Origin: Gammaproteobacteria bacterium
GTDB taxonomy: Bacteria; Pseudomonadota; Gammaproteobacteria; Natronospirales; REEB76
Reading direction: 5' to 3'
DNA: 64,000 nt
Assembly (NCBI GenBank): GCA_035279405.1
Contig: DATEHU010000034.1
Span: forward strand, 1 to 64,000
The position numbers were made by a program, and so were the translations under genes. Below, in pieces: positions 14,689 to 60,326 of this stretch (positions are counted from its first letter, which is position 1; each line of letters starts with the position of its first letter). Below the pieces are notes generated by a model. That model searched no databases and had not been told where the DNA came from. It saw nothing but the letters and a program-made list of their open reading frames with translations.

Positions 14689-14700
14689 AGTCCCGCAATC

Positions 14701-14751
14701 GCGGCGATGGAGTTCGCCCCCAACCGCCCTCAAAGGCTAATGACTCCTACT
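14701..14751 (+). ncRNA. Fluoride riboswitch (crcB motif)
   Basis: The stretch has the hallmarks of the fluoride-sensing aptamer: GGCGATGGAGTTCGCC forms the first stem (GGCG 14703-14706 with CGCC 14715-14718), then CCAACCGCC, and the conserved GGCTAATGACTCCTACT (14735-14751). It lies directly upstream of crcB, the fluoride exporter gene that this riboswitch class usually controls. The 3' end of the aptamer overlaps the 5' arm of a terminator, giving a ligand-dependent on switch. Confidence 0.93.
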
Positions 14752-14782
14752 GGACCCAGAACGAGTTCAGAGGAGTTTTTTT
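14743..14782 (+). terminator. Riboswitch-controlled intrinsic terminator
   Basis: ACTCCT (14743-14748) pairs with AGGAGT (14771-14776), and after one bulged base CTGGAC (14750-14755) pairs with GTTCAG (14765-14770); a T-run follows to 14782. The 5' arm is shared with the conserved 3' end of the aptamer, so fluoride binding should stop the hairpin from forming. The same AGGAG can act as the ribosome site for the small ORF at 14783. Confidence 0.85.
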
Positions 14783-45264: not shown

Positions 45265-45281
45265 TTGGCACGCAGCTTGCT
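45265..45281 (+). promoter_or_regulatory. Sigma-54 promoter of glnA
   Basis: TTGGCACGCAGCTTGCT matches the -24/-12 consensus TTGGCACG-N4-TTGCT at every conserved position. It is 44 bp before the glnA ATG. With the NtrC sites upstream it shows glnA is induced under nitrogen limitation. Confidence 0.93.
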
Positions 45282-47720: not shown

Positions 47721-48804
47721 GATGGGAAGTCCATCCGCAGCGTTGTCCGTATTACTGGAGACCATGACCACCGGCCTTATGTGGTTGGATCCATCCTTAC
47801 GTCCTCTTTACGTGAATCCGGCGGCGGAATCTCTCCTGGACCTGGATGGCCGGGCAGGCAAGTCTCGGGGGCTTACTGAAACTTTACCTGGCAATGTCGA
47901 ATTCCTGGCAACTCTGCAACGGGCGCGGCAAACCCGCGAAACCATCACCCGGCGCGAACTGGTTTTGACCGTGGGTGCGGCGAACGCACGTCATACCCTG
48001 ACCGTGGATTGCACGGTCTCCGCGCTGGCAGAGCGCGATGCAACCCAGGATCTGCTCGTGGAACTGGTGCCACTGGACCGGCACCTGCGCATCAGCCACG
48101 AAGCGGGCCTGAGCCAGCAAAGCGGCGTGAATCGCGCGCTGGCGCGCAGTCTGGCGCACGAAGTGAAGAACCCGCTCGGCGGGATCCGCGCCGCCGCGCA
48201 ACTCCTTGAACGCAAATTCACGCAATCGAATCTGGTCGAGTACACGCAAATCATCATCAGCGAAGTGGATCGTTTGGCCGCGCTGGTGGACAGCCTGCTG
48301 GGTCCCGCCCGGCCTGCGAGGCCCAGGGAAATTAACCTGCACGAACTCATGGAGCACGTGGCTCGCCTCACGGCGGCAGCCGCTGGCCCGAAAATCCTGC
48401 GCGACTACGATCCCAGCCTGCCGGAGCTGTGGCTGGACCGCGACCAGATGGTGCAGGCCTTGCTCAATCTTGCCAAAAACGCCAGCGAGGCGGCCGGGGT
48501 TCGTGGTCGCGTAATTTTCCGCACCCGGGCAATGCGGCAGTTCACGCTCAACGGCGTGCGCCAGCGGCTGGTGGTCTGCGCCGACATCGAAGATGACGGT
48601 CCCGGCATTCCGGCAGACATGCGGCCGAAACTCTTCACGCCGCTGACCAGCAGCAAGCCGTCGGGTTCGGGTCTGGGGCTGAGCATTGCCCAAGAACTGG
48701 TGAGCCGCCAGGGCGGGCTCATCGAATTTCACAGCCAGCCTGGCTGCACGGTGTTCTCAGTGCTGTTGCCGCTGCAAACCGGACATGAGCGCACATCTGC
48801 CTGA
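47713..48804 (+). CDS. glnL: Nitrogen regulation sensor histidine kinase NtrB (GlnL)
   Basis: NtrB phosphorylates NtrC under nitrogen limitation and dephosphorylates it when PII is bound. The 363-residue protein has a PAS domain (about 8-120), the phosphoacceptor histidine near 149 in ARSLAHEVKNPLGGIRAAAQLL, and a GHKL ATPase domain with LLNLAKNASEAA (N box), IEDDGPGIP (G1) and TSSKPSGSGLGLSIA (G2). No membrane segment is seen. ATG 47713 or 47722 may be used. It overlaps ntrC by 20 bp. Confidence 0.95.
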   Translation: MVQMGSPSAALSVLLETMTTGLMWLDPSLRPLYVNPAAESLLDLDGRAGKSRGLTETLPGNVEFLATLQRARQTRETITRRELVLTVGAANARHTLTVDCTVSALAERDATQDLLVELVPLDRHLRISHEAGLSQQSGVNRALARSLAHEVKNPLGGIRAAAQLLERKFTQSNLVEYTQIIISEVDRLAALVDSLLGPARPARPREINLHELMEHVARLTAAAAGPKILRDYDPSLPELWLDRDQMVQALLNLAKNASEAAGVRGRVIFRTRAMRQFTLNGVRQRLVVCADIEDDGPGIPADMRPKLFTPLTSSKPSGSGLGLSIAQELVSRQGGLIEFHSQPGCTVFSVLLPLQTGHERTSA

Positions 48805-50176
48805 AATCTGGTTGCTGGATGATGATCCCGCGTTACGCCGGCTTACGGGGGAGGCCTTGCGCGATGCCGGTCACGCCACGCGTGAGTTCGCCGACGTCAC
48901 CGAACTGCACAAGGCGCTGGCACGCCAGCTGCCAGCGTTGCTGATTACCGATATCCGCCTGCCCGGAAGTGACGGTTTGGATCTGCTCGCGCAACTGCAC
49001 CAAGCGCACCCGCAGTTGCCGGTGGTGATAGTGACTGCACACAGCGATCTGCAAAGTGCGGTCGCGGCCTATCAGGGCGGCGCCTTTGAGTATCTGCCCA
49101 AACCTTTCGACTTGGACGAATTGCTGAGCGTCGTAGCTCGCGCCCTGCAGCAGTCTGGCCCGCAAAACGCACCGGCCACCGCGGAGCCTGACGGTGATCA
49201 TGTCCTGATCGGCGACTCGCCGGCCATGCAGATTGTGTATCGCAGCATCGCACGGCTCGCCGGCACCCATTTTACGGTACTCATCAGCGGCGAATCCGGC
49301 ACCGGCAAGGAACTCGCCGCGCGCGCGTTGCACCGCCACAGCCCGCGCGCGCGCCAGCCGTTCGTGGCGCTGAACACTGCGGCGATTCCCGCGGAGCTTC
49401 TGGAATCGGAATTGTTCGGCCACGAGCGTGGTGCGTTCACCGGCGCCAGCGCGCGCCATGCGGGACGCTTCGAGCAGGCGCATGGCGGCACGCTGTTTCT
49501 GGACGAAATCGGCGACATGCCCAGCGCACTGCAAACCCGCTTGCTGCGCGTGCTGGCCGAGGGCGAGTTTTATCGTGTCGGTGGCCACGAGGCTCTGCGC
49601 GCCGACGTGCGGGTGCTGGCCGCCACCCACCAGGATCTGGATGCACTGATACGCCAGGGGCGGTTTCGCGAAGACCTGTTTCACCGTTTGAATGTGATGC
49701 GCATCCACATGCCCGCGTTGCGCGAACGCTTCGAAGACATTCCGTTGCTGCTTCAGCATTTTGTGAACAGCGCATCCCGCGAACTGGGCACCGCACCCAA
49801 GCGCTTCACCGCCGAAGCCATGCGTGCGCTGCAACAGCGCGCTTGGCCGGGCAATGTACGCGAGCTTGCGAATGCCTGTCGGCGTCTGATGTTGATGACC
49901 GCGGGGCGCATCATTCACCAGAGTGATCTAGACGCGCTTGCCGTCGCACGCCTTGACGACGCGCCGGCCGCGGATCAATGGCCGCAGCAGTTGCATGCCT
50001 GGGTGCAGCGCGAATTGCTGTCCGGGACCACCGCCATCGCGGAACGTGCGCGCGCCGAACTCAGCCGTATCCTGATCGAAACGGCACTCGAACACACCGG
50101 CGGACGGCGCCAGCAGGCGGCGCGCCGCCTGGGAATGGGCCGCAACACGCTGGCGCGCAAACTCAAGCGCAGTTAA
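48785..50176 (+). CDS. glnG: Nitrogen regulation response regulator NtrC (GlnG)
   Basis: NtrC is the sigma-54 activator for nitrogen-regulated genes. The 463-residue protein has a receiver with Asp12/Asp13, phosphoacceptor Asp about 56 in LLITDIRLPGSDG and Lys about 106; an AAA+ domain with ISGESGTGKELAARALH and the sigma-54 contact loop ERGAFTGAS; and a C-terminal Fis-type helix-turn-helix, EHTGGRRQQAARRLGMGRNT. Its likely targets in this window are glnA and its own operon. Confidence 0.96.
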   Translation: MSAHLPEIWLLDDDPALRRLTGEALRDAGHATREFADVTELHKALARQLPALLITDIRLPGSDGLDLLAQLHQAHPQLPVVIVTAHSDLQSAVAAYQGGAFEYLPKPFDLDELLSVVARALQQSGPQNAPATAEPDGDHVLIGDSPAMQIVYRSIARLAGTHFTVLISGESGTGKELAARALHRHSPRARQPFVALNTAAIPAELLESELFGHERGAFTGASARHAGRFEQAHGGTLFLDEIGDMPSALQTRLLRVLAEGEFYRVGGHEALRADVRVLAATHQDLDALIRQGRFREDLFHRLNVMRIHMPALRERFEDIPLLLQHFVNSASRELGTAPKRFTAEAMRALQQRAWPGNVRELANACRRLMLMTAGRIIHQSDLDALAVARLDDAPAADQWPQQLHAWVQRELLSGTTAIAERARAELSRILIETALEHTGGRRQQAARRLGMGRNTLARKLKRS

Positions 50177-50372: not shown

Positions 50373-53300
50373 TCAGGTTTGGTCGGTGCGCGGGCGGGGT
50401 GCATCAGCGTTCCCATCCGCGGTGCCGACATCGGGGGGCTTCACAAGTTCGCTGGCCAACGGCAGACTGACTTCGAGCTTGGTGCCCTGGCCCGGAACGG
50501 AGTGCAGCTCGAATTTTCCACCGGCGAAGCGCACGCGTTCCTGCATGCCCAGCAGCCCGAAGCTCCGGCCCGCAGCTGCGCGCCGGCGCGCAGCGTCCAC
50601 GTCAAAGCCGCAGCCGTCGTCCTGCACACTGAAGTGCAGCGCGCCATCCTGAACGCGCACATGCATCTCCACATGCCGGGCTTGGGCGTGCTTGGCCACA
50701 TTGGTAAGCGCGGACTGCAGCACACGAAAACAGGTGATCTCAGTGATCGCCGGCAAACGCGGCAGACCCGGATCCATCTCCAAGCTCACCTTGAGTCCGG
50801 ATGCGGCCACGCGTTCGCGCACAAACCAGCGCAGTGTGGCTGCGAGGCCCAGGTCGTCGAGCATCGCGGGCCGCAGATCCAGCGACAGGCTGCGCACCTG
50901 CTCGGAAAGCTCGGTGGTCAGCGCGCTGATTTTCCGGATCGCGGGCTGCTGCGCGTGCGGTGCCCGGGTCTCCAGTTCCTTGAGTTGCAACAGCACGGTC
51001 AGCAGATTCTGGCCCATTTCGTCGTGCAACTCGCCCGCCAGCCGCCGCCGTTCTTCCTCCTGGGCCTGCAGGATGCGAGGCGACAGCCGCTGCAGCTCCA
51101 GCAAATAGGCTTGCACGCGCTGTTCGGCTTCACGCCGCGCGGTGATGTCCAGGGCCACACCCGCGAGGCAGGTACGGCCGTTCAGGGTTAGGCGCCGTCC
51201 GGTGAAGTAATGCGGAATCCGCTGCCCGTCACGGCACAGCAAATCCGCCTCGATGTCGGCGTGGCCGCGCGCGAACACTTGAGCAACGCTGTCGGCCATG
51301 AGCTGGCGCTGTTCTGGAACGATCAGGTCGAGCGGATTTAGCTTGCCAAGCTGCTCAGCGCTGTAGCCCGTAACCTGCTCGAGGCGCTGGTTCCACATCA
51401 GGAATTTGCCCTGGTCGGTGCATAGCGTGAACAGACCGGGCAGGCTGTTGATGGCGTGGGTGAGCAACAACTGCTCTTGGTGCAACTTTTCTTCGGCTTG
51501 CTTTTGCGCGCTGATGTCCACGCCCATGCCGACCACGCAGGGTTGCCCGCGCCACAGGAAGTGCTGTGCCGCGTAATAATAGGGAATGCGACGCCCATCC
51601 TTGGTATAAAGTTCAGTCTCACCGCTCAAGCTGGTGCCGTGCAGGATTTCCTGCATCAATTCCGTATGCCGCGCACGCCGGTCCGGGGGCACGATGTCGG
51701 CCGTGGTAATTTCGCGCATTTCCTGCATGCTGTAGCCGGTGATTTCTTCGGTTTGCCGGTTCCAGCGCAGGAATTTGCCCTTGGCGTCGAACACGTAAAA
51801 CACCCCGGGCAGCACGTCCAGCGCGTGCAGCACGAATTCACGTTCTGCCAGCAGACGGCTTTCCGCCTCGAGGCGTGCGCTGATGTCGTTGATGAATATC
51901 TGGATGTTGCCATCCTCAAGGCGCGTGGCGCTCAATTCCGTGTGGATGGTGTGGCCGTCCTGGTGGCGCAGGCGCGATTGCAGATGCACGGTATCATCAC
52001 CGGCCACCTGACTTACGCGCTGCATCGCTTGCACTTCATCCAGCGACACCAACTGGCTGATGGGCATGCCGAGCAGTTGGTCACGGCGATAGCCGGTCAT
52101 CTGGCACAGCGCACGGTTGGCAAACAGGATTTCACCCGTAGGCCGGCGCACCAGGATCCCGATCATGGCCTGCTCCACCAGTTCGCGGTGTTGACGCTCA
52201 CTTTCCTCGAGCTGGTGCTGTACCGCCAGGCGCTCGCCGATGTCGCGCTGCACGGATTGAATATCGCCGTTGGGCAGGCGCAGCGTGCTCACCTCCACGT
52301 AAACTTTGTGGCCGTCTTTGTGGAACATCCAGGACTCAAAATACGCGGATTCACCGGATTTGAGCCGGTCACCGCGCTGTTCGGACGGTTCGATCACGTC
52401 GGTGATGCGCATGTGCAGCAGTTCCTCGCGGCTGTAACCCAGCATCGTGCAGAACGCCGCGTTCACCAAGGTGAATTCACCCGATGCGCGCCGCAGGCAG
52501 ATGGCTTCCACCGCCTGTTCGATGAGTTGCGCATAACGCTGCTCGCCGGCGGCGCGTGCTTGCTCGATGTTGCGGCGCGCCTGCGCCTGGGCCTCGAGGC
52601 TGGCCGCCATGCGGTTCAAGCCCGCGGCCAGCAATCCGAATTCGCCGTCGGTGTCCGTCAACTGGGCGCGCGCTTCCCATTGGCCACGGCCAATGCGTTG
52701 CAGGGTTTGCAACAGGTGCCGCAACCGGTGCGTGACTAACGTGGACGCGGCCCACCATGTCGTCAGCATGATGCACAATGCCACCGCTACCACGATGGCC
52801 AGGTCCCAGGCCAAGGGTACAAAAGTTGTGGTCCGCAATACGCTCACGTCTATTCCGCTCGCTACGAGCAGGGCGTGTTCGGGTATGTCAGTCGGGATGC
52901 GCCGCAGCGAAAAGACGCGCGGCTTGCCGTCGATTCCCGGCAGGGAGCGCTGCACCGTACCCGATACGGCACGCAGTGCCTGGAACAATGCGCTCCGGGA
53001 CTGGTCGCTGCCAGTCAGAGTGCGGTCCTCGGGATAGTGCATCAACAGAGTGCCATCCTGGCTGAGCACAGCGAGCGCGCCGTAATGCGCCAGCAGGATC
53101 TCCTTGTCCGGCGGGGCCAGCACCTCGGGCGAAACCGCCGCGCTCAAGGTACCGATCAACTTGCCGGCTGCATCAAAAAACGGAGCGGAAAACACCAGCA
53201 GGCTGTGCCGGGTGATGAACCCTCGGGGAATCTCATCGCTGGTAAAGCGACGCGTGCGCTGCACTTCCTGGAACCAGGCCCGGTTGCTGACGTTGAGGGC

Positions 53301-53660
53301 GTGCGCGAAGGGCACCGCGCTGCAGCGGAATTCGCCGTTCAAGGACATCACGGCCAGATTGGTGTACAAGGGCATGCGGGCGCGTAACGCCGCCAGCGCG
53401 TGGCTGCACGCCTTCGGCGGTGCGTTTACGGCGGGCAGTTGTGCCATGAGCGTGAGTACGTCCTGACTGCGCGCGGCCAGATTCCGGTAACGGTCAACAA
53501 CATTATTCGTGGCCAGTTGACTGATGCCGTAGGCGTAACTGCGCGCGGTGTAATAACGCTCAAACGCGGTGTAAATCAGCACGGCTATGGCGGGCAGAGT
53601 GCTGATTGCAACCAGCAACACCAGGCGTACGCGCAAACTCTGGGGCAGGGGGATTTTCAT
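50373..53660 (-). CDS. Multi-PAS sensor histidine kinase (NarL-type partner)
   Basis: The 1095-residue membrane kinase has a first membrane helix at about 9-30, a periplasmic Cache-type sensor of about 250 residues, a second helix near 285-305, a HAMP linker, four PAS domains (for example LGYSREELLHMRITDVIEPSE and NALCQMTGY-type repeats), and a HisKA_3/HATPase output with the histidine in RRLAGELHDEMGQNLL and DDGCGFD. HisKA_3 kinases pair with LuxR/NarL regulators; one is encoded about 570 bp upstream. ATG 53660 is chosen because the upstream frame is not conserved-looking. Confidence 0.88.
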   Translation of the reverse strand: MKIPLPQSLRVRLVLLVAISTLPAIAVLIYTAFERYYTARSYAYGISQLATNNVVDRYRNLAARSQDVLTLMAQLPAVNAPPKACSHALAALRARMPLYTNLAVMSLNGEFRCSAVPFAHALNVSNRAWFQEVQRTRRFTSDEIPRGFITRHSLLVFSAPFFDAAGKLIGTLSAAVSPEVLAPPDKEILLAHYGALAVLSQDGTLLMHYPEDRTLTGSDQSRSALFQALRAVSGTVQRSLPGIDGKPRVFSLRRIPTDIPEHALLVASGIDVSVLRTTTFVPLAWDLAIVVAVALCIMLTTWWAASTLVTHRLRHLLQTLQRIGRGQWEARAQLTDTDGEFGLLAAGLNRMAASLEAQAQARRNIEQARAAGEQRYAQLIEQAVEAICLRRASGEFTLVNAAFCTMLGYSREELLHMRITDVIEPSEQRGDRLKSGESAYFESWMFHKDGHKVYVEVSTLRLPNGDIQSVQRDIGERLAVQHQLEESERQHRELVEQAMIGILVRRPTGEILFANRALCQMTGYRRDQLLGMPISQLVSLDEVQAMQRVSQVAGDDTVHLQSRLRHQDGHTIHTELSATRLEDGNIQIFINDISARLEAESRLLAEREFVLHALDVLPGVFYVFDAKGKFLRWNRQTEEITGYSMQEMREITTADIVPPDRRARHTELMQEILHGTSLSGETELYTKDGRRIPYYYAAQHFLWRGQPCVVGMGVDISAQKQAEEKLHQEQLLLTHAINSLPGLFTLCTDQGKFLMWNQRLEQVTGYSAEQLGKLNPLDLIVPEQRQLMADSVAQVFARGHADIEADLLCRDGQRIPHYFTGRRLTLNGRTCLAGVALDITARREAEQRVQAYLLELQRLSPRILQAQEEERRRLAGELHDEMGQNLLTVLLQLKELETRAPHAQQPAIRKISALTTELSEQVRSLSLDLRPAMLDDLGLAATLRWFVRERVAASGLKVSLEMDPGLPRLPAITEITCFRVLQSALTNVAKHAQARHVEMHVRVQDGALHFSVQDDGCGFDVDAARRRAAAGRSFGLLGMQERVRFAGGKFELHSVPGQGTKLEVSLPLASELVKPPDVGTADGNADAPRPRTDQT

Positions 53661-53801
53661 GTTGGTTCCGCCACGGGCGATTGGGACGATTGTCGGAAGG
53701 GTCGGCGTCCGTCCCTGGAGTGGTTGCCTGCCGTCCACCCGCTAGGGATTTTCCTTATTGCTACCCCGGAGCTTTCCCAACACCTTTCGGGGACTGTCTG
53801 A

Positions 53802-53830
53802 TTTAAACCGGAACCATGCGCCCGTATAAA
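53802..53830 (+). promoter_or_regulatory. Candidate promoter for the small secreted protein, possibly leaderless
   Basis: TTTAAA (53802-53807) and TATAAA (53825-53830) are separated by 17 bp. The expected start is near 53837, at or next to ATG 53838, and no ribosome site precedes that ATG, so the mRNA may lack a leader. Confidence 0.45.
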
Positions 53831-53837
53831 CATAATT

Positions 53838-54209
53838 ATGTCAATCAGTATACGTTTCCTGGCGTGCTTGGCTCTGGGAGCGAGCCTGGCCGTGATTTCC
53901 CTGTCCAGCTTGGCCGCAACCCGCAGTCAGCAGTTTGTGGTCATGGTGCGGGTATTGCCGCATTGTCAATGGTCCCTTCCCTCTGAGTATGCTGGCGGCG
54001 GGCGGTTTACCATGGAATGCACCCGGGACACTGGTTATGTCGTAAGCGTGAGCCGCGGCGGTGAGTCACGCTCCGAGGCACACCCAGCCATAATCAGCGG
54101 GGTCGGCCGCGGTACCCAACAAGTATTTGCAATACGTGTGCCACCGGCTGCTTTCTCAAACGTCGGACCGCCAAGCGACGGGCCGCTGTTCCTGACCATC
54201 AATTACTGA
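53838..54209 (+). CDS. Small secreted protein, distant spore-coat-U-like
   Basis: The 123-residue product has a signal peptide (cleavage near SLAAT) and a short beta-rich domain with cysteines in VLPHCQWSLPS and FTMECTRDTGYVVSVSRGG, ending LFLTINY. The cysteine spacing, central CT...Y.VS and C-terminal beta strand recall spore-coat-U pilin domains, but the match is weak. It lies between the kinase and response regulator genes on the opposite strand. Confidence 0.6.
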   Translation: MSISIRFLACLALGASLAVISLSSLAATRSQQFVVMVRVLPHCQWSLPSEYAGGGRFTMECTRDTGYVVSVSRGGESRSEAHPAIISGVGRGTQQVFAIRVPPAAFSNVGPPSDGPLFLTINY

Positions 54210-54229
54210 AACGTCGGCCACGCCCGCGC

Positions 54230-54853
54230 TCATTTGCTGGAAAGCGGTGCGAGCCGCGCCGCGTAGCGGATCAGGGCGGCGGCATTCGGAATCCGCAGGC
54301 GTTGCATGATTTCAGCGCGATGACTCTCCACCGTTTTGACGCTCAGTTGCAGTTCCACTGCGATGCCCTTGACGTTTTTGCCCTCGGCAATCAGACGCAG
54401 GATCTGTTTCTGGCGCGGCGTGAGATGTGCGGCCTGGCCGGCATGCCCCTCGATGGCCTGCTGGGATACCGCGGCGCTGAGATAGGTGCCGCCGCGTGCC
54501 ACCGCTGCGATCGCCAGTTTGAGCTCATCGGGGGTGGCGCGCTTCAGCACATAAGCGGAGGCTCCGGCCGCCAGCGCTTCGTGCACGTACTCCTCGTTGG
54601 CGTGCATGGAAAGGATGATGACGTGGATGTCGGGGGACTGTGCGTGAATCTGGGTGGTGGCCTGCAAACCGTTCAGGTCGTCCATTTGCAGATCCATGAT
54701 CACGATATCCGGATGCAATGTGCCCGCGAGTTGCACGGCCTCACGACCGCTGGTGGCCTCGGCCACCACCTCGACATCCGCCAGACCCTGCAGCAGTTTC
54801 ACCACGCCGGCACGGAACAGCGTATGGTCGTCGGCAATCAGAATTCGGGTCAT
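54230..54853 (-). CDS. LuxR/NarL family response regulator
   Basis: The 207-residue protein has a receiver domain (Asp8/Asp9, phosphoacceptor Asp54 in DIVIMDLQMDDLNG, Lys near 104) and a LuxR helix-turn-helix (LTPRQKQILRLIAEGKNVKG, then LSVKTVESHRAEIM). It is the probable partner of the PAS kinase. It lies between that kinase and the chaperone-usher operon, suggesting it controls fimbriae. ATG 54853 begins MTRILIADDH, the usual form. Confidence 0.9.
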   Translation of the reverse strand: MTRILIADDHTLFRAGVVKLLQGLADVEVVAEATSGREAVQLAGTLHPDIVIMDLQMDDLNGLQATTQIHAQSPDIHVIILSMHANEEYVHEALAAGASAYVLKRATPDELKLAIAAVARGGTYLSAAVSQQAIEGHAGQAAHLTPRQKQILRLIAEGKNVKGIAVELQLSVKTVESHRAEIMQRLRIPNAAALIRYAARLAPLSSK

Positions 54854-54924
54854 GCGTTCAATCCTTGCTGGGCTGTCGTTCAAAAGTATAGTCGGTGTGG
54901 CTATCAGGCGCGATCTATGTTGGC

Positions 54925-54952
54925 ATCGCGGCGGGGTCCGCGGCTCCCACAA
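54925..54952. repeat. Half-copy of the REP-like palindrome
   Basis: ATCGCGGCGGGGTCCGCGGC followed by TCCCACAA matches the right arm of the element at 9519-9583, including ATCGCGG and CTCCCACAA. Only one arm is present. Confidence 0.6.
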
Positions 54953-55069: not shown

Positions 55070-55531
55070 TCAGAAGCTGATGGTGGCGGTGATGTTGTCT
55101 ATGTAATTGCCGGGGGCGATGTCCTGCTGGGCGGGAACCCGCGCGTACACGTTCAGGCGCACGCGGTTGTTGTTGAACGGCTGGCTGGACGTCAGGGTGC
55201 CGCCGGTCCCGTCGCCCCAGATAATGTTGCGTGCGGCATTGGTGTAAAGGTTGTAATCGAGTTGATCACCGGTCGCGCCGCTCAGCATGTAACGCGGGTT
55301 ATACGAGCCGCTCTGGCCGGTGCTGAGTGCTACGGTGACGGTTCCCGCGCCGCTGCATCGGACGGTGATGCGGCCGGTACGGTTCAACGGTGCGGCGTTC
55401 AGCGGATTATAGTTGCCGAAATTCACCCGAGTGGCCCTGACCGTGCAGGATGCGGCCCGGGATGTCGCGGGTACGCTGAGCACGACTGCGCAAGCCAGCA
55501 GGGAAACTGCGAGGACGATGCAGGCGCGCAT
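55070..55531 (-). CDS. Spore coat U domain pilin-like protein (operon last gene)
   Basis: The 153-residue secreted protein has a signal peptide ending near TSRAA and a spore-coat-U domain: CTVRATRVNFGNYNPLNAAP, a second cysteine in ITVRCSGAG, LDYNLYTNAARNIIWGDGTGG, and the C-terminal strand ITATISF. It is assembled as a subunit of an archaic chaperone-usher pilus. As the last gene it may encode the tip adhesin-like or minor subunit, though it is short for an adhesin. The start is 2 bp after the upstream stop. Confidence 0.85.
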   Translation of the reverse strand: MRACIVLAVSLLACAVVLSVPATSRAASCTVRATRVNFGNYNPLNAAPLNRTGRITVRCSGAGTVTVALSTGQSGSYNPRYMLSGATGDQLDYNLYTNAARNIIWGDGTGGTLTSSQPFNNNRVRLNVYARVPAQQDIAPGNYIDNITATISF

Positions 55532-55533
55532 AG

Positions 55534-56067
55534 TCAGAACGTCACCGTGGCAGTGATGGTGTCGGTGTAACTGCCCGGGATCATGTCTTGTTGTGCGGGA
55601 ATATTACCGTAAACAGTGTTCGTCACGCCTGCCCTCGCCCGCGGCCGCGAGACGGTTGTCGAGACCGCGGTAGATCCTGAACTCCCGTCTCCCCATACCG
55701 TAGTGAGTGTGGAATCGGTATACAGATTGTAATTCAGCACATTCCCCCCGCTGGTCAAAGTGCGCTGCACATACGTACCACTGCCGCTGCTGAGCGAGAT
55801 GGTATAAGTAATGCCGCTTCCGGGGACTCCGCTCTGGCACTGGAAGGTAAGCGTGCCGGTGCCGGTGACCGAAGTTGCGCTCAAGGGGTCGTAATTGCCG
55901 AAATTCACCGCGGTGGAGCTGATGGTGCAGCGCGGTGCGGCGTGCACAGCAGCGGCCATCAGCAAGCCAGCGAGGCCCGCGGCAATTGGCAGCCACAGGT
56001 GATTGGTGCGTGCCGGTCTTGCGCAGACGGGCCGACGTACCTGCATCCAAAGGCGTTTGCTTTTCAT
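55534..56067 (-). CDS. Spore coat U domain pilin-like protein
   Basis: The 177-residue protein has a long N-terminal signal region (membrane segment LWLPIAAGLAGLLMAAAVHAA) and a spore-coat-U domain with CTISSTAVNFGNYDPLSATS, FQCQSGVPGSG, LNYNLYTDSTLTTVWGDGSS and the end ITATVTF. The end strand is the donor strand expected for chaperone-usher subunits. ATG 56067 overlaps the usher stop as ATGA. Confidence 0.87.
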   Translation of the reverse strand: MKSKRLWMQVRRPVCARPARTNHLWLPIAAGLAGLLMAAAVHAAPRCTISSTAVNFGNYDPLSATSVTGTGTLTFQCQSGVPGSGITYTISLSSGSGTYVQRTLTSGGNVLNYNLYTDSTLTTVWGDGSSGSTAVSTTVSRPRARAGVTNTVYGNIPAQQDMIPGSYTDTITATVTF

Positions 56068-58670
56068 GGTGATGTCAACTTGCAAATGAAAGTTCCCAAA
56101 TCTGGCAACGGATCGCTGGTCTGCGGCATGGTGACCTGCAATCGGCAGCTTTGATGGTCCCAGTTTGCCTCGATTTCATTATGGACTTGCAGGCCGGTGA
56201 GATACACCTCGCCGTCCAGGCCTACGGGGAATGACTGGGTCTGGCCTTCGATTTGAACGGTCGCTCCGGCCGGCAGCGGTTTGCCGTCGGCGAGCTTGAT
56301 GGTGAGCGTGGCGCCGCGCGTCGAAGTGATGGGGAATTTCACCACCACGCCACTGTTGAAGCGCGGCACTGCGTTTTGTTGCAGCGTGTTGATTTGGACG
56401 CTCAAGGGAATACTCTGGGCGTCGAGACTCACGGGGTTGTTCTGGTAGGGGCGCAGATTGGGGATCAGAGCGTCGCCGTTCTTATCGGTGACGCCCACCG
56501 GCTGGTTGTCGGCGTACACGGTGACGCCGGGAATGCCGGGCGCTTCCACCAGGCCAAACGCACCGTTGATCTGGCGTGCAGGGAACACGCCGTCGCCGAT
56601 GAAGGCCAGTCCGCCTCTGGTCTCGGCCTGATAACTGGTTTGGCCGGCGGCGTTGAGCGCGCCCACGCGGTAGGTGCCGACGTTGTTCTGATAATCGAAT
56701 TCCGCCTGGTTGAACGCGTCCGGTCCAAGCTGTGCGCTGACGCGGTAGCCGCTGCCGGTGCCGGCGGGCAGGCTCTCCTGCACCTGGGCGAAACCCTGGT
56801 CCACGTTGTTCTGGCGCTGCACGCCGAAGCTCACGTTGCTGCGCTCGCCGAAGGGCAGCGTGAACATCAGGATCAGGCCGTTACTGCTGGTGGTGAGTGT
56901 GTGATAGGCACTGGCGCTGAAGAAGCCGCGGTTGCCGACGTTGACGCCGTAACTTGCGGTCAGGAGTCGCGTGTGGCCGAACAAGGGTGAACTTTGATCG
57001 AGGTAGGCAAGTGACGCGGAACCCGCCCGGCCCATGAACGCCCCGATGCTGGCAGTGATCTGCTTGCGCGGCGCCGGCAGACCATTGTAGCCCAGCTCGG
57101 TAAAGCCCGGACTCGCCAGTTGTGAGCTGAGGCCGGCGTTGAAGGTTTCGCCCTGCCACTGATAGCCGATGAGTCCCAGCACACCCTGACCGAGCGCGCT
57201 GTGGCTTGCGGCCAAAGCGGCATTGAATATGCCCGCTTTTGGCGCCGCCCAGCTGGCGCCGGCGCTTGTGTCCTGGAGACCGGCGGAACTTTCAGCGCGC
57301 AGCTCGCCGGTGAAGTTATCCGTGAAGCCGTGGCGGAAGAGGCCAGTGGCGGCAAACGGTCCGTAGCCGTTGCTCGCGAGGCCGTAGTTCTCGCGCAGCT
57401 TGCCGGCGGAAAACGCATAATCGTCGAGCCCGGATTTCAGCAGATTCGAGCTGGCATAGAAGGATTCCGAAATCACCTGTTCGCGGCCGAGCAGGTCGCG
57501 CACCACCAGCGTGGCGGTGCCGGGACCGGTGACCACGGGTACCGCCGGCACCGAGAACGGACCTGGCGGCACCTGCTGGGATTCCTTGAGCACGCCGTTG
57601 ACGTACAACTGCACGGCTGAGGGCAGTGCCGCTTGGCCGCCGATCACCGGCAGCGGGAAAGTGATGAAATACGGGCGGGTGGAGAAATTGGTGCCGTACT
57701 GCACCCCGCCCAGGCGCACTGCGAGGCCGGTCATGCCGCCGTCGGTGATGCTGTCGCCGAGTTGCAGCGTGGTCATATTGTCGGGATTGTCATGCGTCCA
57801 GACCGTGTCGAGCCGCGTCCAGTGGCTGTGGGCGTGATTGATGTTCTGGCCGATGAAGCTCGAGGTGCCCACGCCCCAGTCGTTGAATACGCCGGCTTGC
57901 AACAGACTGTTGATTGAAGTCAGGCCGGAGCTGCGCGTGCCGAAGAAATCGTAGTTGAGAAAACCGCCAAAAGGTGTGGGCTGCGGCTCAGGATTATTCG
58001 TGAACAGACCGTCCACGACCGAGCCAGTGAAGGCGCCGGGTGGTGCCGTAATCCACAGGCTCTCGGTGAGCGCGTCCAGATGATAGGTCAGGCCGGGAAT
58101 CGCATCCAATGGATAATACTTCTCGTTCTGATACTCATACGGTTGGACAGCGGGCTGGCGTAGCCGCCAGCGCTTCAGGTCGGCGCCCTTGGCGTACAGA
58201 TTTTTGTCCGGGGCAGTGCCGAAGCCGAGAAACAGATCGGTCTCGTGCCAGAGCTGCTGGTTGAGATGCACTTCCAGCAGCACTTCGATGGGCGCGGTGG
58301 TTGCCGCTGCCTGTGTGGCAGGGGCCGTCGCAGAGGGCGCGGCGGGACGGGGCGAGGCTGCGCTGGCCGTTTGAGCCGCGATGGATGCAACGGAGGCGGT
58401 TGCGGCGCGGTGACTTGTGTCAGCGCGGGTCCGCCGCGGCGCACGCACGAGCGGGGCCGGTGGCGGAATGGCCGGCCGCACTTGGGGCTTGGACGGGACC
58501 CCGACGGTTGCGGCTGTCGAACGGGGGCTTGGCTGAGCGGAAGTCACGGGCGTTGACGACTGCTGCGAGCAGCGCCGCAGTGACAACGCGACAGCGGCAA
58601 TCGCCACTGCGACGGCGAGCGCCAAGCCGAATCGCAGCGCATTGCCGCGGCTGAACGCGCCCCCGGACAT
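56064..58670 (-). CDS. Outer membrane usher of an archaic chaperone-usher pilus
   Basis: Ushers form the outer-membrane pore and order pilus subunits. Residues from about 128 (IEVLLEVHLNQQLWHETDLFLG) to the end form a full usher: N-terminal domain, 24-strand barrel, plug and two C-terminal domains with a cysteine pair in QSCRLQV and GTFICK. Unusually, the first 127 residues are a short basic start, a hydrophobic segment (about 13-32) and a long Ala/Pro/Thr-rich linker. This is unlike a normal cleaved signal peptide. It lies 91 bp after the chaperone gene. Confidence 0.9.
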   Translation of the reverse strand: MSGGAFSRGNALRFGLALAVAVAIAAVALSLRRCSQQSSTPVTSAQPSPRSTAATVGVPSKPQVRPAIPPPAPLVRAPRRTRADTSHRAATASVASIAAQTASAASPRPAAPSATAPATQAAATTAPIEVLLEVHLNQQLWHETDLFLGFGTAPDKNLYAKGADLKRWRLRQPAVQPYEYQNEKYYPLDAIPGLTYHLDALTESLWITAPPGAFTGSVVDGLFTNNPEPQPTPFGGFLNYDFFGTRSSGLTSINSLLQAGVFNDWGVGTSSFIGQNINHAHSHWTRLDTVWTHDNPDNMTTLQLGDSITDGGMTGLAVRLGGVQYGTNFSTRPYFITFPLPVIGGQAALPSAVQLYVNGVLKESQQVPPGPFSVPAVPVVTGPGTATLVVRDLLGREQVISESFYASSNLLKSGLDDYAFSAGKLRENYGLASNGYGPFAATGLFRHGFTDNFTGELRAESSAGLQDTSAGASWAAPKAGIFNAALAASHSALGQGVLGLIGYQWQGETFNAGLSSQLASPGFTELGYNGLPAPRKQITASIGAFMGRAGSASLAYLDQSSPLFGHTRLLTASYGVNVGNRGFFSASAYHTLTTSSNGLILMFTLPFGERSNVSFGVQRQNNVDQGFAQVQESLPAGTGSGYRVSAQLGPDAFNQAEFDYQNNVGTYRVGALNAAGQTSYQAETRGGLAFIGDGVFPARQINGAFGLVEAPGIPGVTVYADNQPVGVTDKNGDALIPNLRPYQNNPVSLDAQSIPLSVQINTLQQNAVPRFNSGVVVKFPITSTRGATLTIKLADGKPLPAGATVQIEGQTQSFPVGLDGEVYLTGLQVHNEIEANWDHQSCRLQVTMPQTSDPLPDLGTFICKLTSP

Positions 58671-58761: not shown

Positions 58762-59472
58762 TCAAGCTCCGGGGGCGAGTTGCGCATGGAGGCTGCCCCC
58801 GTCGGTGTCCGCGGTGATCTGTAGCAGAGTATTCGCTGCCAGCGGCGCCGCCAGTTTGATGTTCCAGGTGCGTTGCGAGCCGGGCAAAAGGTAACCGCCG
58901 AATTCCTGCAGGAGCGGAACGCTGTGGCCTTTTTGAGTCACGCTCAACTTGAGGAGTTCGGTGTGTGCCGTGCCTGTATTGACGGCACTGATGGCGAGTT
59001 CCCGGTCGGACAGTCGTTTGGCCGACCATTGCAGTGTCGGAGCCGTCGCGACCGCCGGTTCCACAAATACCGGAATACCGACACGCAGGGCGATCTGCAC
59101 TCCGTGGAAGCCCGATTGAGGCGTCGGCGGCACTTCCGTTAAAAACAACCGGTAGGAAGTTTCCTGTTTGGTATCCGGGGCGGTTCGCATGCCGATGCGC
59201 ACCACCTGCTGGCTGCCGGGGGTGACCGTAAAAATCGGGGGTGTGGCCAGAAGCTCGCGGCTCGGCGTGTAGACGTCTGTACCGTTCTTTTGAGACCATG
59301 CCACGATTTGCAACTGCACCACGGTGGGACTGTCGCTGCTGTTGATCACACGCAGCACGCCCGTGGTCTGGGCGGCGGACAGTGTCACGCGGATGGGATT
59401 TACCTGGAAGGAAGCGGCTCGCGCCCCGAAGGGCGCGAACAGCATGATTACCAGGAAAAGCACCTTGCGCAT
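58762..59472 (-). CDS. Periplasmic fimbrial chaperone
   Basis: The 236-residue PapD-like chaperone has a signal peptide ending GARAAS, the first Ig domain with SFQVNPIRVTLSAAQ and VVQLQIVAWSQ, the chaperone signature TSYRLFLTEVPP, and GVQIALRVGIPVFVEP. It donates a strand to pilus subunits in the periplasm before they reach the usher. ATG 59472 lies 31 bp after the major subunit gene. Confidence 0.93.
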   Translation of the reverse strand: MRKVLFLVIMLFAPFGARAASFQVNPIRVTLSAAQTTGVLRVINSSDSPTVVQLQIVAWSQKNGTDVYTPSRELLATPPIFTVTPGSQQVVRIGMRTAPDTKQETSYRLFLTEVPPTPQSGFHGVQIALRVGIPVFVEPAVATAPTLQWSAKRLSDRELAISAVNTGTAHTELLKLSVTQKGHSVPLLQEFGGYLLPGSQRTWNIKLAAPLAANTLLQITADTDGGSLHAQLAPGA

Positions 59473-59503: not shown

Positions 59504-60028
59504 TTAGAACGTAACCGTGACAGTAATCGTGTCCTGGTAGGAATTCGCCACGCTCGACGGCGTCACGTTCTGGCCACTGGGGATGGTGCCATACACTGTG
59601 AAAGGCTGCACGGTTGCAGCGCTGGCGCTGGTATAGCCCTGGGTTGAAGTGCTGCCGGTGCCATCACCCCACACGGCCGTGTTACCCGCGGTGGTGTAGA
59701 GCTGGTAGTTGAGCAGATCGGTGGAGCTACCGGTGTCCTTCATCTTGCGCTGAGCCAGACTGCCGTTCACACCGCCGTCCAGCGCAATGGTGGCTACCGT
59801 GGTCTTGGTGCACTGCACGCTCACCATCGAGGTACCGGTGGTGTTGGTCGCAGCCAGCGGATCGTAAGTGCCGAAGGCCAGCGCCGTCGCCGAAATATTG
59901 CACGATTTGATGACGTTGGCGGACACCAGAAAGGTCGTGGTCTGCGGCGACGGACCTGCAAAGGCGCTGCCCATGGCCAGCAAGCCGGCCGTGCCGGTCA
60001 GCATAAGAGTACGCAAGTGCTTAAACAT
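59504..60028 (-). CDS. Spore coat U domain protein, probable major pilin
   Basis: The 174-residue secreted subunit has a signal peptide ending MGSAFAG and the spore-coat-U domain: NVIKSCNISATALAFGTYDP, VQCTKTTVA, LLNYQLYTTAGNTAVWGDGTG and end strand ITVTVTF. As first gene after the sigma-54 promoter it is probably the main shaft subunit (like CsuA/B). ATG 60028 follows GGAGAA. The order pilin-chaperone-usher-pilin-pilin resembles Csu operons. Confidence 0.9.
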   Translation of the reverse strand: MFKHLRTLMLTGTAGLLAMGSAFAGPSPQTTTFLVSANVIKSCNISATALAFGTYDPLAATNTTGTSMVSVQCTKTTVATIALDGGVNGSLAQRKMKDTGSSTDLLNYQLYTTAGNTAVWGDGTGSTSTQGYTSASAATVQPFTVYGTIPSGQNVTPSSVANSYQDTITVTVTF

Positions 60029-60118
60029 GACAGTTCTCCAAGTTAATAGATTGTCAAAATCCACTTGCAGCCGTCCGCCTTAGCTCAATCCAGGAAGCGG
60101 GCCGCTGCACCGCAGGTA

Positions 60119-60160
60119 TTCCTGAGACGCTCTCGGGTGAAACCCCGGAGGGTCTCGGAA
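60119..60160 (-). other. Structured leader of the chaperone-usher operon
   Basis: On the minus strand TTCCGAGAC (60160-60152) pairs with GTCTC-A-GGAA (60128-60119), and inside it CTCCGGG pairs with CCCG-A-GAG around GTTTCA. A smaller hairpin CTGC-GGT-GCAG follows at about 60115-60104. The fold lies in the predicted 140-nt leader. It does not match a riboswitch class I know. Confidence 0.55.
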
Positions 60161-60179
60161 TTCCTCCTAACCTAGTTAA

Positions 60180-60196
60180 TGCAACCCTTGTGCCAA
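60180..60196 (-). promoter_or_regulatory. Sigma-54 promoter of the chaperone-usher operon
   Basis: On the minus strand TTGGCACAAGGGTTGCA carries both invariant parts, TGGCAC at -24 and TTGC at -12, with exact spacing. Transcription should start near 60168, about 140 bp before the major pilin ATG. It implies that an enhancer-binding activator controls these fimbriae. Confidence 0.85.
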
Positions 60197-60257
60197 AACC
60201 CGTGGTACGCGGTATTCAAGGCTTAGCCAGCCAGACTGGATGGAGTTCCTTGACCCC

Positions 60258-60280
60258 AAAGTGACGCTGGGTGTCACTTT
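60258..60280. promoter_or_regulatory. 23-bp palindrome: activator site or terminator
   Basis: AAAGTGAC (60258-60265) and GTCACTTT (60273-60280) are perfect inverted repeats around a 7-bp centre. Seen from the sigma-54 promoter it sits about 90-110 bp upstream of the start, the normal position of an enhancer. It could equally be a terminator for pyrD, as T-runs flank it on both strands. Confidence 0.6.
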
Positions 60281-60299
60281 TGTTCATTCCGACGGCTGC

Positions 60300-60326
60300 A
60301 AAAGGCGTTGCGTCAGGACGCCTTTT
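60300..60326. terminator. Bidirectional intrinsic terminator after pyrD
   Basis: AAAAGGCGT (60300-60308) pairs with ACGCCTTTT (60318-60326) around a 9-nt loop. The A and T tracts at the ends make it work on either strand. It separates pyrD from the fimbrial operon. Confidence 0.75.

Follow-up and report, generated by a model that had tools for sequence, protein, structure and literature searches.

A pilA-type box at the sigma-54 promoter of an archaic chaperone-usher pilus operon, with PilR as its probable activator

The window analyzed here, 64,000 nucleotides of contig DATEHU010000034.1 (positions 1 to 64,000; assembly GCA_035279405.1, Gammaproteobacteria bacterium, order Natronospirales), contains an archaic chaperone-usher pilus operon on the minus strand, preceded by a sigma-54 promoter and, further upstream, a palindrome. 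The question raised by this locus is which enhancer-binding protein (EBP) activates the operon. A first-pass annotation of the window had left the palindrome unassigned; it has now been matched to the box found at pilA, the gene of the type IV pilin, and the EBP PilR is the probable activator of the operon through the shared box at 60258-60280. The genome (2.46 Mb, 59 contigs, estimated 97.6% complete) belongs to a sample of 11 genomes of the genus. The usher was found in six of the 10 other congeners (67-88% identity), and the operon-bearing set comprised seven genomes: G000 (the genome of the window), G002, G004, G005, G007, G009, and G010; G001 and G008 are without the operon. The elements upstream of the operon are as follows:

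60180..60196, minus strand (read 60196-60180): sigma-54 promoter TTGGCACAAGGGTTGCA (-24/-12), by motif match and conservation in congeners
60258..60280, minus strand: palindrome AAAGTGAC-N7-GTCACTTT, proposed PilR enhancer box, by repeat search, conservation, and the pilA-trained matrix
60262-60276, minus strand: core TGAC-N7-GTCA of the palindrome

The sigma-54 promoter reported at 60180-60196 by the first-pass annotation was confirmed as a motif. The sequence TTGGCACAAGGGTTGCA is a perfect -24/-12 site (TGGCAC-N5-TTGCW, with GG and GC at fixed spacing), and the site, TTGGCAYANGGNTTGCW, is kept in 7/7 operon-bearing genomes, the own genome included, so that the loss of the -24/-12 bases looked for in close relatives was not observed. 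The form TTGGCAY-N5-TTGCW had 6 matches in the own genome vs. 0 for a reversed-pattern control, and 52 across the 11 genomes vs. 2; sigma-54 targets of known type among them were glnA (in the window, 45265) and pilA (contig C49). The rpoN gene is present in the genome (PF04552, E 1.1e-62). A second perfect TGGCAC-N5-TTGCA at 54128-54143 (minus strand) was treated as a chance match because it falls within an ORF of the plus strand, lacks the TTGGCA form, and has no counterpart in the corresponding region of G002.

The palindrome reads AAAGTGACACCCAGCGTCACTTT on the minus strand (60280-60258), with two perfect arms of 8 bp and a 7-bp middle that is not symmetric. Its centre lies ~73 bp upstream of TTGG, roughly at -100 from the predicted transcription start, in line with the distance of about 90-110 bp upstream of the start given in the first-pass annotation. 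The core TGAC-N6/7-GTCA was found 78-80 bp upstream of the -24/-12 site (-78 to -80) in all seven operon promoters, with 63-65 bp from box to promoter; the core has one mismatch in G010 and is degenerate in G007 (TGAC-N7-GTTG). The complete layout, 96 bp from core to -12, is conserved in G002 and G004. The outer arms are changed in G005, G007, G009, and G010, where the core remains at -78 or -79. In shuffles, computed for four of the seven operon promoters, an exact TGAC-N6/7-GTCA anywhere in the upstream 160 bp had a P of about 0.004, and one at -82..-76 a P of at most 0.0005. When clades were compared, identity was 0.40-0.58 for the spacer together with the sequence beyond the box and 40-55% for the spacer of distant clades, vs. 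0.49 for random sequence, whereas 6-8 of the 8 core positions were identical. Since the -24/-12 site and the box are both kept while their flanks have diverged to random identity, both are under selection, and the pattern looks like that of a putative binding site. It is extremely improbable that the promoter or the box is a chance match: the perfect TGGCAC-N5-TTGCW form alone does arise by chance (5 matches, control 3), but the TTGGCAY form is almost without control matches, and the arrangement is conserved in seven genomes with diverged flanks.

The same box was found at pilA. The pilA promoters of G000, G005, G006, and G007 (all four testable) carry TGAC-N6/7-GTC(A) at -80 to -108; the boxes are tandem in G005 and G006, and one G006 copy has the exact layout of the operon (-80/N7). 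The search for further copies proposed in the first-pass annotation returned the full 23-mer only once in the genome, and the composite of box and sigma-54 site gave two matches, at pilA and at this operon only (control 0). In a class-wide scan for the composite (369 genomes), matches were obtained in 13 genomes vs. two control matches; outside the genus, five stand before type IV pilins of the GFTLIELMIV type and one before a pilB-like ATPase gene. A matrix trained on the pilA boxes alone was scored on all seven operon promoters and gave 15-18 bits on six of them, compared with at most 5.5 bits on the glnA and exporter promoters.

The listing of EBPs, likewise suggested earlier, revealed four full-length NtrC-family proteins in the genome, namely NtrC, a PilR-like regulator, an exporter-linked regulator, and an NtrX-like protein (L038), the last without GAFTGA. 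NtrC passes the TIGR01818 cut-off. The PilR-like regulator is encoded behind a PilS-like sensor (L036:3489-6515) and has an intact GAFTGA-type loop in the form GSFTGA. The third EBP with a GAFTGA-type loop is the regulator beside ABC-exporter genes (L037, C21). PilR orthologues were found in every operon-bearing genome except one that is 52% complete, with pilR close to pilA in G005, G006, and G007; pilR was not found in G001 or G008, both without the operon. G007 (C9:77023-77394) and G010 (C378:2269-2640) each carry a stretch that matches PilR, at 74-76% identity, over its C-terminal 130 residues only. This stretch includes the DNA-binding end, is separate from the full pilR, and is possibly a competitor for PilR sites.

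The next candidates were weighed by the boxes at their presumed targets:

45265..45281, plus strand: glnA sigma-54 promoter with NtrC-type boxes upstream, used for comparison
48785..50176, plus strand: NtrC

Activation of the operon by NtrC under nitrogen limitation through the palindrome is unlikely. The gene ntrC is the nearest EBP gene (10 kb away, and directly adjacent to the operon in G005, G007, and G010), and both box types share AC-N7-GT, but the glnA promoters of the genus have boxes of the TGCAC-N7-GTGCA type, which are absent at the operon promoter with its TGAC-N6/7-GTCA core, and the pilA-trained matrix separates the glnA promoters from those of the operon. Use of the box by a different EBP is equally improbable, whether this is the C21 exporter regulator or a protein whose gene the assembly lacks; the assembly is 97.6% complete, so such a gene could be missing, but a box common to pilA points to the activator of pilA, and the exporter promoter has different repeats. 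The latter promoter (G000:C21:72777-72793) stands before a membrane-fusion-protein gene ~10 kb from the exporter EBP, with TGTCC-N4-GGACA repeats upstream.

The other regulator to be considered is encoded immediately downstream of the operon, in one lineage-specific block with a kinase:

54230..54952, minus strand: NarL-type response regulator without an AAA+ domain
50373..53738, minus strand: PAS histidine kinase of the same lineage-specific block

The NarL-type protein contains neither an AAA+ domain nor a GAFTGA loop, which bears out the earlier statement that it cannot activate sigma-54; a separate EBP is therefore needed. Of the two links then proposed, a separate EBP or NtrC, only the first is supported by the boxes. 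It is very unlikely that the palindrome is bound by the NarL-type regulator, whether this protein acts alongside sigma-54 or represses the operon. The outer AAAG/CTTT arms are confined to the clade in which the NarL gene is also found (G000, G002, and, imperfectly, G004); this association is confounded by its restriction to a single clade, and the core and its position persist where the NarL gene and the kinase are absent from the locus, the same core being found at pilA. In G005, G007, and G010, ntrC is the immediate neighbor of the operon and neither a NarL nor a kinase gene intervenes, so the promoter does not depend on either of them. Action of the NarL regulator in addition, also raised by the first-pass annotation, is thus not a general feature of this promoter; an additive role where the gene is present is possible.

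PilR is favored because its presumed box is shared with pilA, while NtrC and the exporter EBP have other boxes at their presumed targets. In the proposed mechanism, RpoN polymerase would transcribe the archaic chaperone-usher operon from the -24/-12 site at 60180-60196, and the palindrome at 60258-60280 would serve as enhancer site for PilR, which together with its sensor PilS drives pilA. Once phosphorylated, PilR would occupy the box some 100 bp upstream, reach the promoter through a DNA loop, and use ATP hydrolysis to open it; a single signal would thus govern archaic and type IV pili. The sequences themselves show the promoter and the box with their conservation and spacing, the presence of this box at pilA, and the genes rpoN and pilS-pilR; binding of the box by PilR, activity of the promoter, and the nature of the signal sensed by PilS are inferred.

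Several observations weigh against this assignment. The protein is named PilR for its domains, the PilS-like sensor encoded next to it, and the proximity of its gene to pilA, with no NCBIfam cut-off passed, and pilR was undetected in G009. The spacer of the core varies in length (6 or 7 bp). On the degenerate G007 operon box, the pilA-trained matrix gave 7.8 bits (P 0.083), and one control promoter, that of a putative small RNA, showed a partial match of 12.3 bits; the matrix test is also not blind to the form of the motif, because the pilA boxes were gathered with the same pattern. The operon box resembles only loosely the Pseudomonas PilR elements (TGT-N11-AGA and GTCT; PMC6058289). The sample of the genus is small, with about three independent clades, and two congeners are metagenome-assembled genomes. 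The RpoN DNA-binding domain was undetected in G007 (98% complete) and G008 (99%), though both have several sigma-54 sites and EBPs; this is either an assembly gap or unexplained.

If PilR does control both kinds of pili, two structurally unrelated pilus machines, the retractile type IV and the adhesive archaic chaperone-usher pilus, would be wired to one sensor, which would provide a simple coupling of surface sensing or twitching to firm attachment. TGAC-N6/7-GTCA would then be the PilR box of this lineage and could be used as a consensus to predict what PilR controls in further genomes. Each component belongs to a known kind, and the wiring is new as far as searched: searches of the open-licence literature found no description of sigma-54 promoters at archaic chaperone-usher operons, of spore-coat-U genes under RpoN, or of PilR with a chaperone-usher system.

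Among regulators of archaic pili, PprB is NarL-like. The CupE archaic pili of Pseudomonas aeruginosa answer to PprA-PprB, and the available portion of the source describes no sigma-54 control for CupE (PMC10104325); the promoter here, in contrast, is of the sigma-54 type, and its layout needs no NarL-type gene. The closest likeness is to the PilS-PilR/RpoN control of pilA in Pseudomonas, Xylella, Azoarcus, and Geobacter, which likewise combines a -24/-12 site with activator sites further upstream and relies on an EBP of the PilR type, whose gene is often close to pilA (PMC6058289, PMC3224663, PMC3262810, PMC2725144). The difference is the target, which is here an archaic chaperone-usher operon for an unrelated pilus; the portions of these reports that were consulted do not name chaperone-usher operons among PilR targets. 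In P. aeruginosa, pilA and fleSR are targets of PilR, and the Pseudomonas sites are described as NifA-like TGT-N11-AGA with nearby GTCT elements (PMC6058289). In Xylella, one sigma factor affects both the type I and the type IV pilus, and the EBPs are only NtrC and PilR; only pilA1 appeared directly activated by sigma-54 in complex medium (PMC3224663), whereas the chaperone-usher operon studied here has its own -24/-12 site and box.

Between the promoter and the first pilin gene lies a leader of ~140 nt, of which ~110 nt form a structured segment:

60060..60170, minus strand: conserved structured 5' leader segment of the operon mRNA, by folding and covariation, with no Rfam match at threshold

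The folding z-scores of the leader ranged from -1.5 to -5.4. In the alignment, 93% of the cells were paired and 14 cells were changed on both sides vs. 6.6 in shuffles, slid controls being far lower; the covariation is only suggestive, because the alignment was fitted to the structure and comprises only seven sequences in about three clades. A covariance model found the leader once in every operon-bearing genome and at no other place in the genus, so it is not a dispersed RNA family. The leader was not recognized as a c-di-GMP-I riboswitch: it matched no Rfam family at threshold, RF01051 included, and a lax threshold gave weak matches only (best P11, 24 bits vs. a cut-off of 70). In G013, a relative of the same order, a c-di-GMP-I riboswitch does occupy this position in the mRNA leader of its archaic chaperone-usher operon (L035:10774-10860, minus strand, 80 bits). 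As a plain guess, the leader may serve mRNA stability or translation control. A two-layer switch is rather doubtful; in it, PilS-PilR and sigma-54 would start both pili, and the leader, as an undescribed and possibly ligand-sensing regulatory RNA, would decide on the use of the transcript where the relative has its riboswitch.

The operon and the repeat upstream of it were annotated as follows:

59504..60028, minus strand: SCPU (spore-coat-U) pilin, first gene of the operon, start ATG 60028
58762..59472, minus strand: PapD-like chaperone
56064..58670, minus strand: outer membrane usher
55534..56085, minus strand: SCPU subunit
55070..55531, minus strand: SCPU subunit
60300..60326, no strand assigned: inverted repeat AAAAGGCGT-N9-ACGCCTTTT, by inference the probable terminator of the upstream dehydrogenase gene

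The single run of genes for SCPU pilins, a PapD-like chaperone, and an usher identifies the operon as archaic (spore-coat-U) chaperone-usher. ATG 60028, which has GGAGA upstream, is a likelier start of the pilin than GTG 60064 and the most likely one, and the 5' UTR is therefore about 140 nt. The operon is followed by the genes for the NarL-type regulator and the PAS histidine kinase and then by ntrC on the opposite strand. Where contigs allow, the operon in congeners lies downstream of the same dihydroorotate-dehydrogenase-type gene. The block 50373-54952, consisting of the NarL and PAS kinase genes and a small secreted-looking protein without a Pfam match (53838-54209), was found in G000 and G002; NarL is also present at a contig end in G004, and the locus is without the block in G005, G007, and G010. 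The archaic operons of other genera (G013, G030, G101, and G124) had no -24/-12 site before the pilin, so among the sampled genomes the sigma-54 wiring is seen only in this genus.

Two additional composites were found in G007. On contig C73 (L086, 4935-5220), a second box with a sigma-54 promoter precedes a broken pilin copy, whose first 23 residues are 65% identical and which later contains stops; here, the promoter has outlived its gene. On contig C88 (L087, near 5264, minus strand), a third box and sigma-54 site with the same spacing has no recognizable chaperone-usher or other target gene. On the contig of the window but outside the window, a sigma-54 site (G000:C34:261593-261609) has a conserved GC-rich segment, GGGGAGACGCGGGACAGGCGCGCGCCGGCCG, directly downstream that contains no ORF; site and segment occur in four congeners (loci L080 near 5110, minus strand, L090, L085, and L091), the three of these loci that were scanned had no Rfam match, and the segment is a probable sigma-54-dependent small RNA. 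The window also contains a fluoride riboswitch at 14694-14756 (plus strand, 54 bits).
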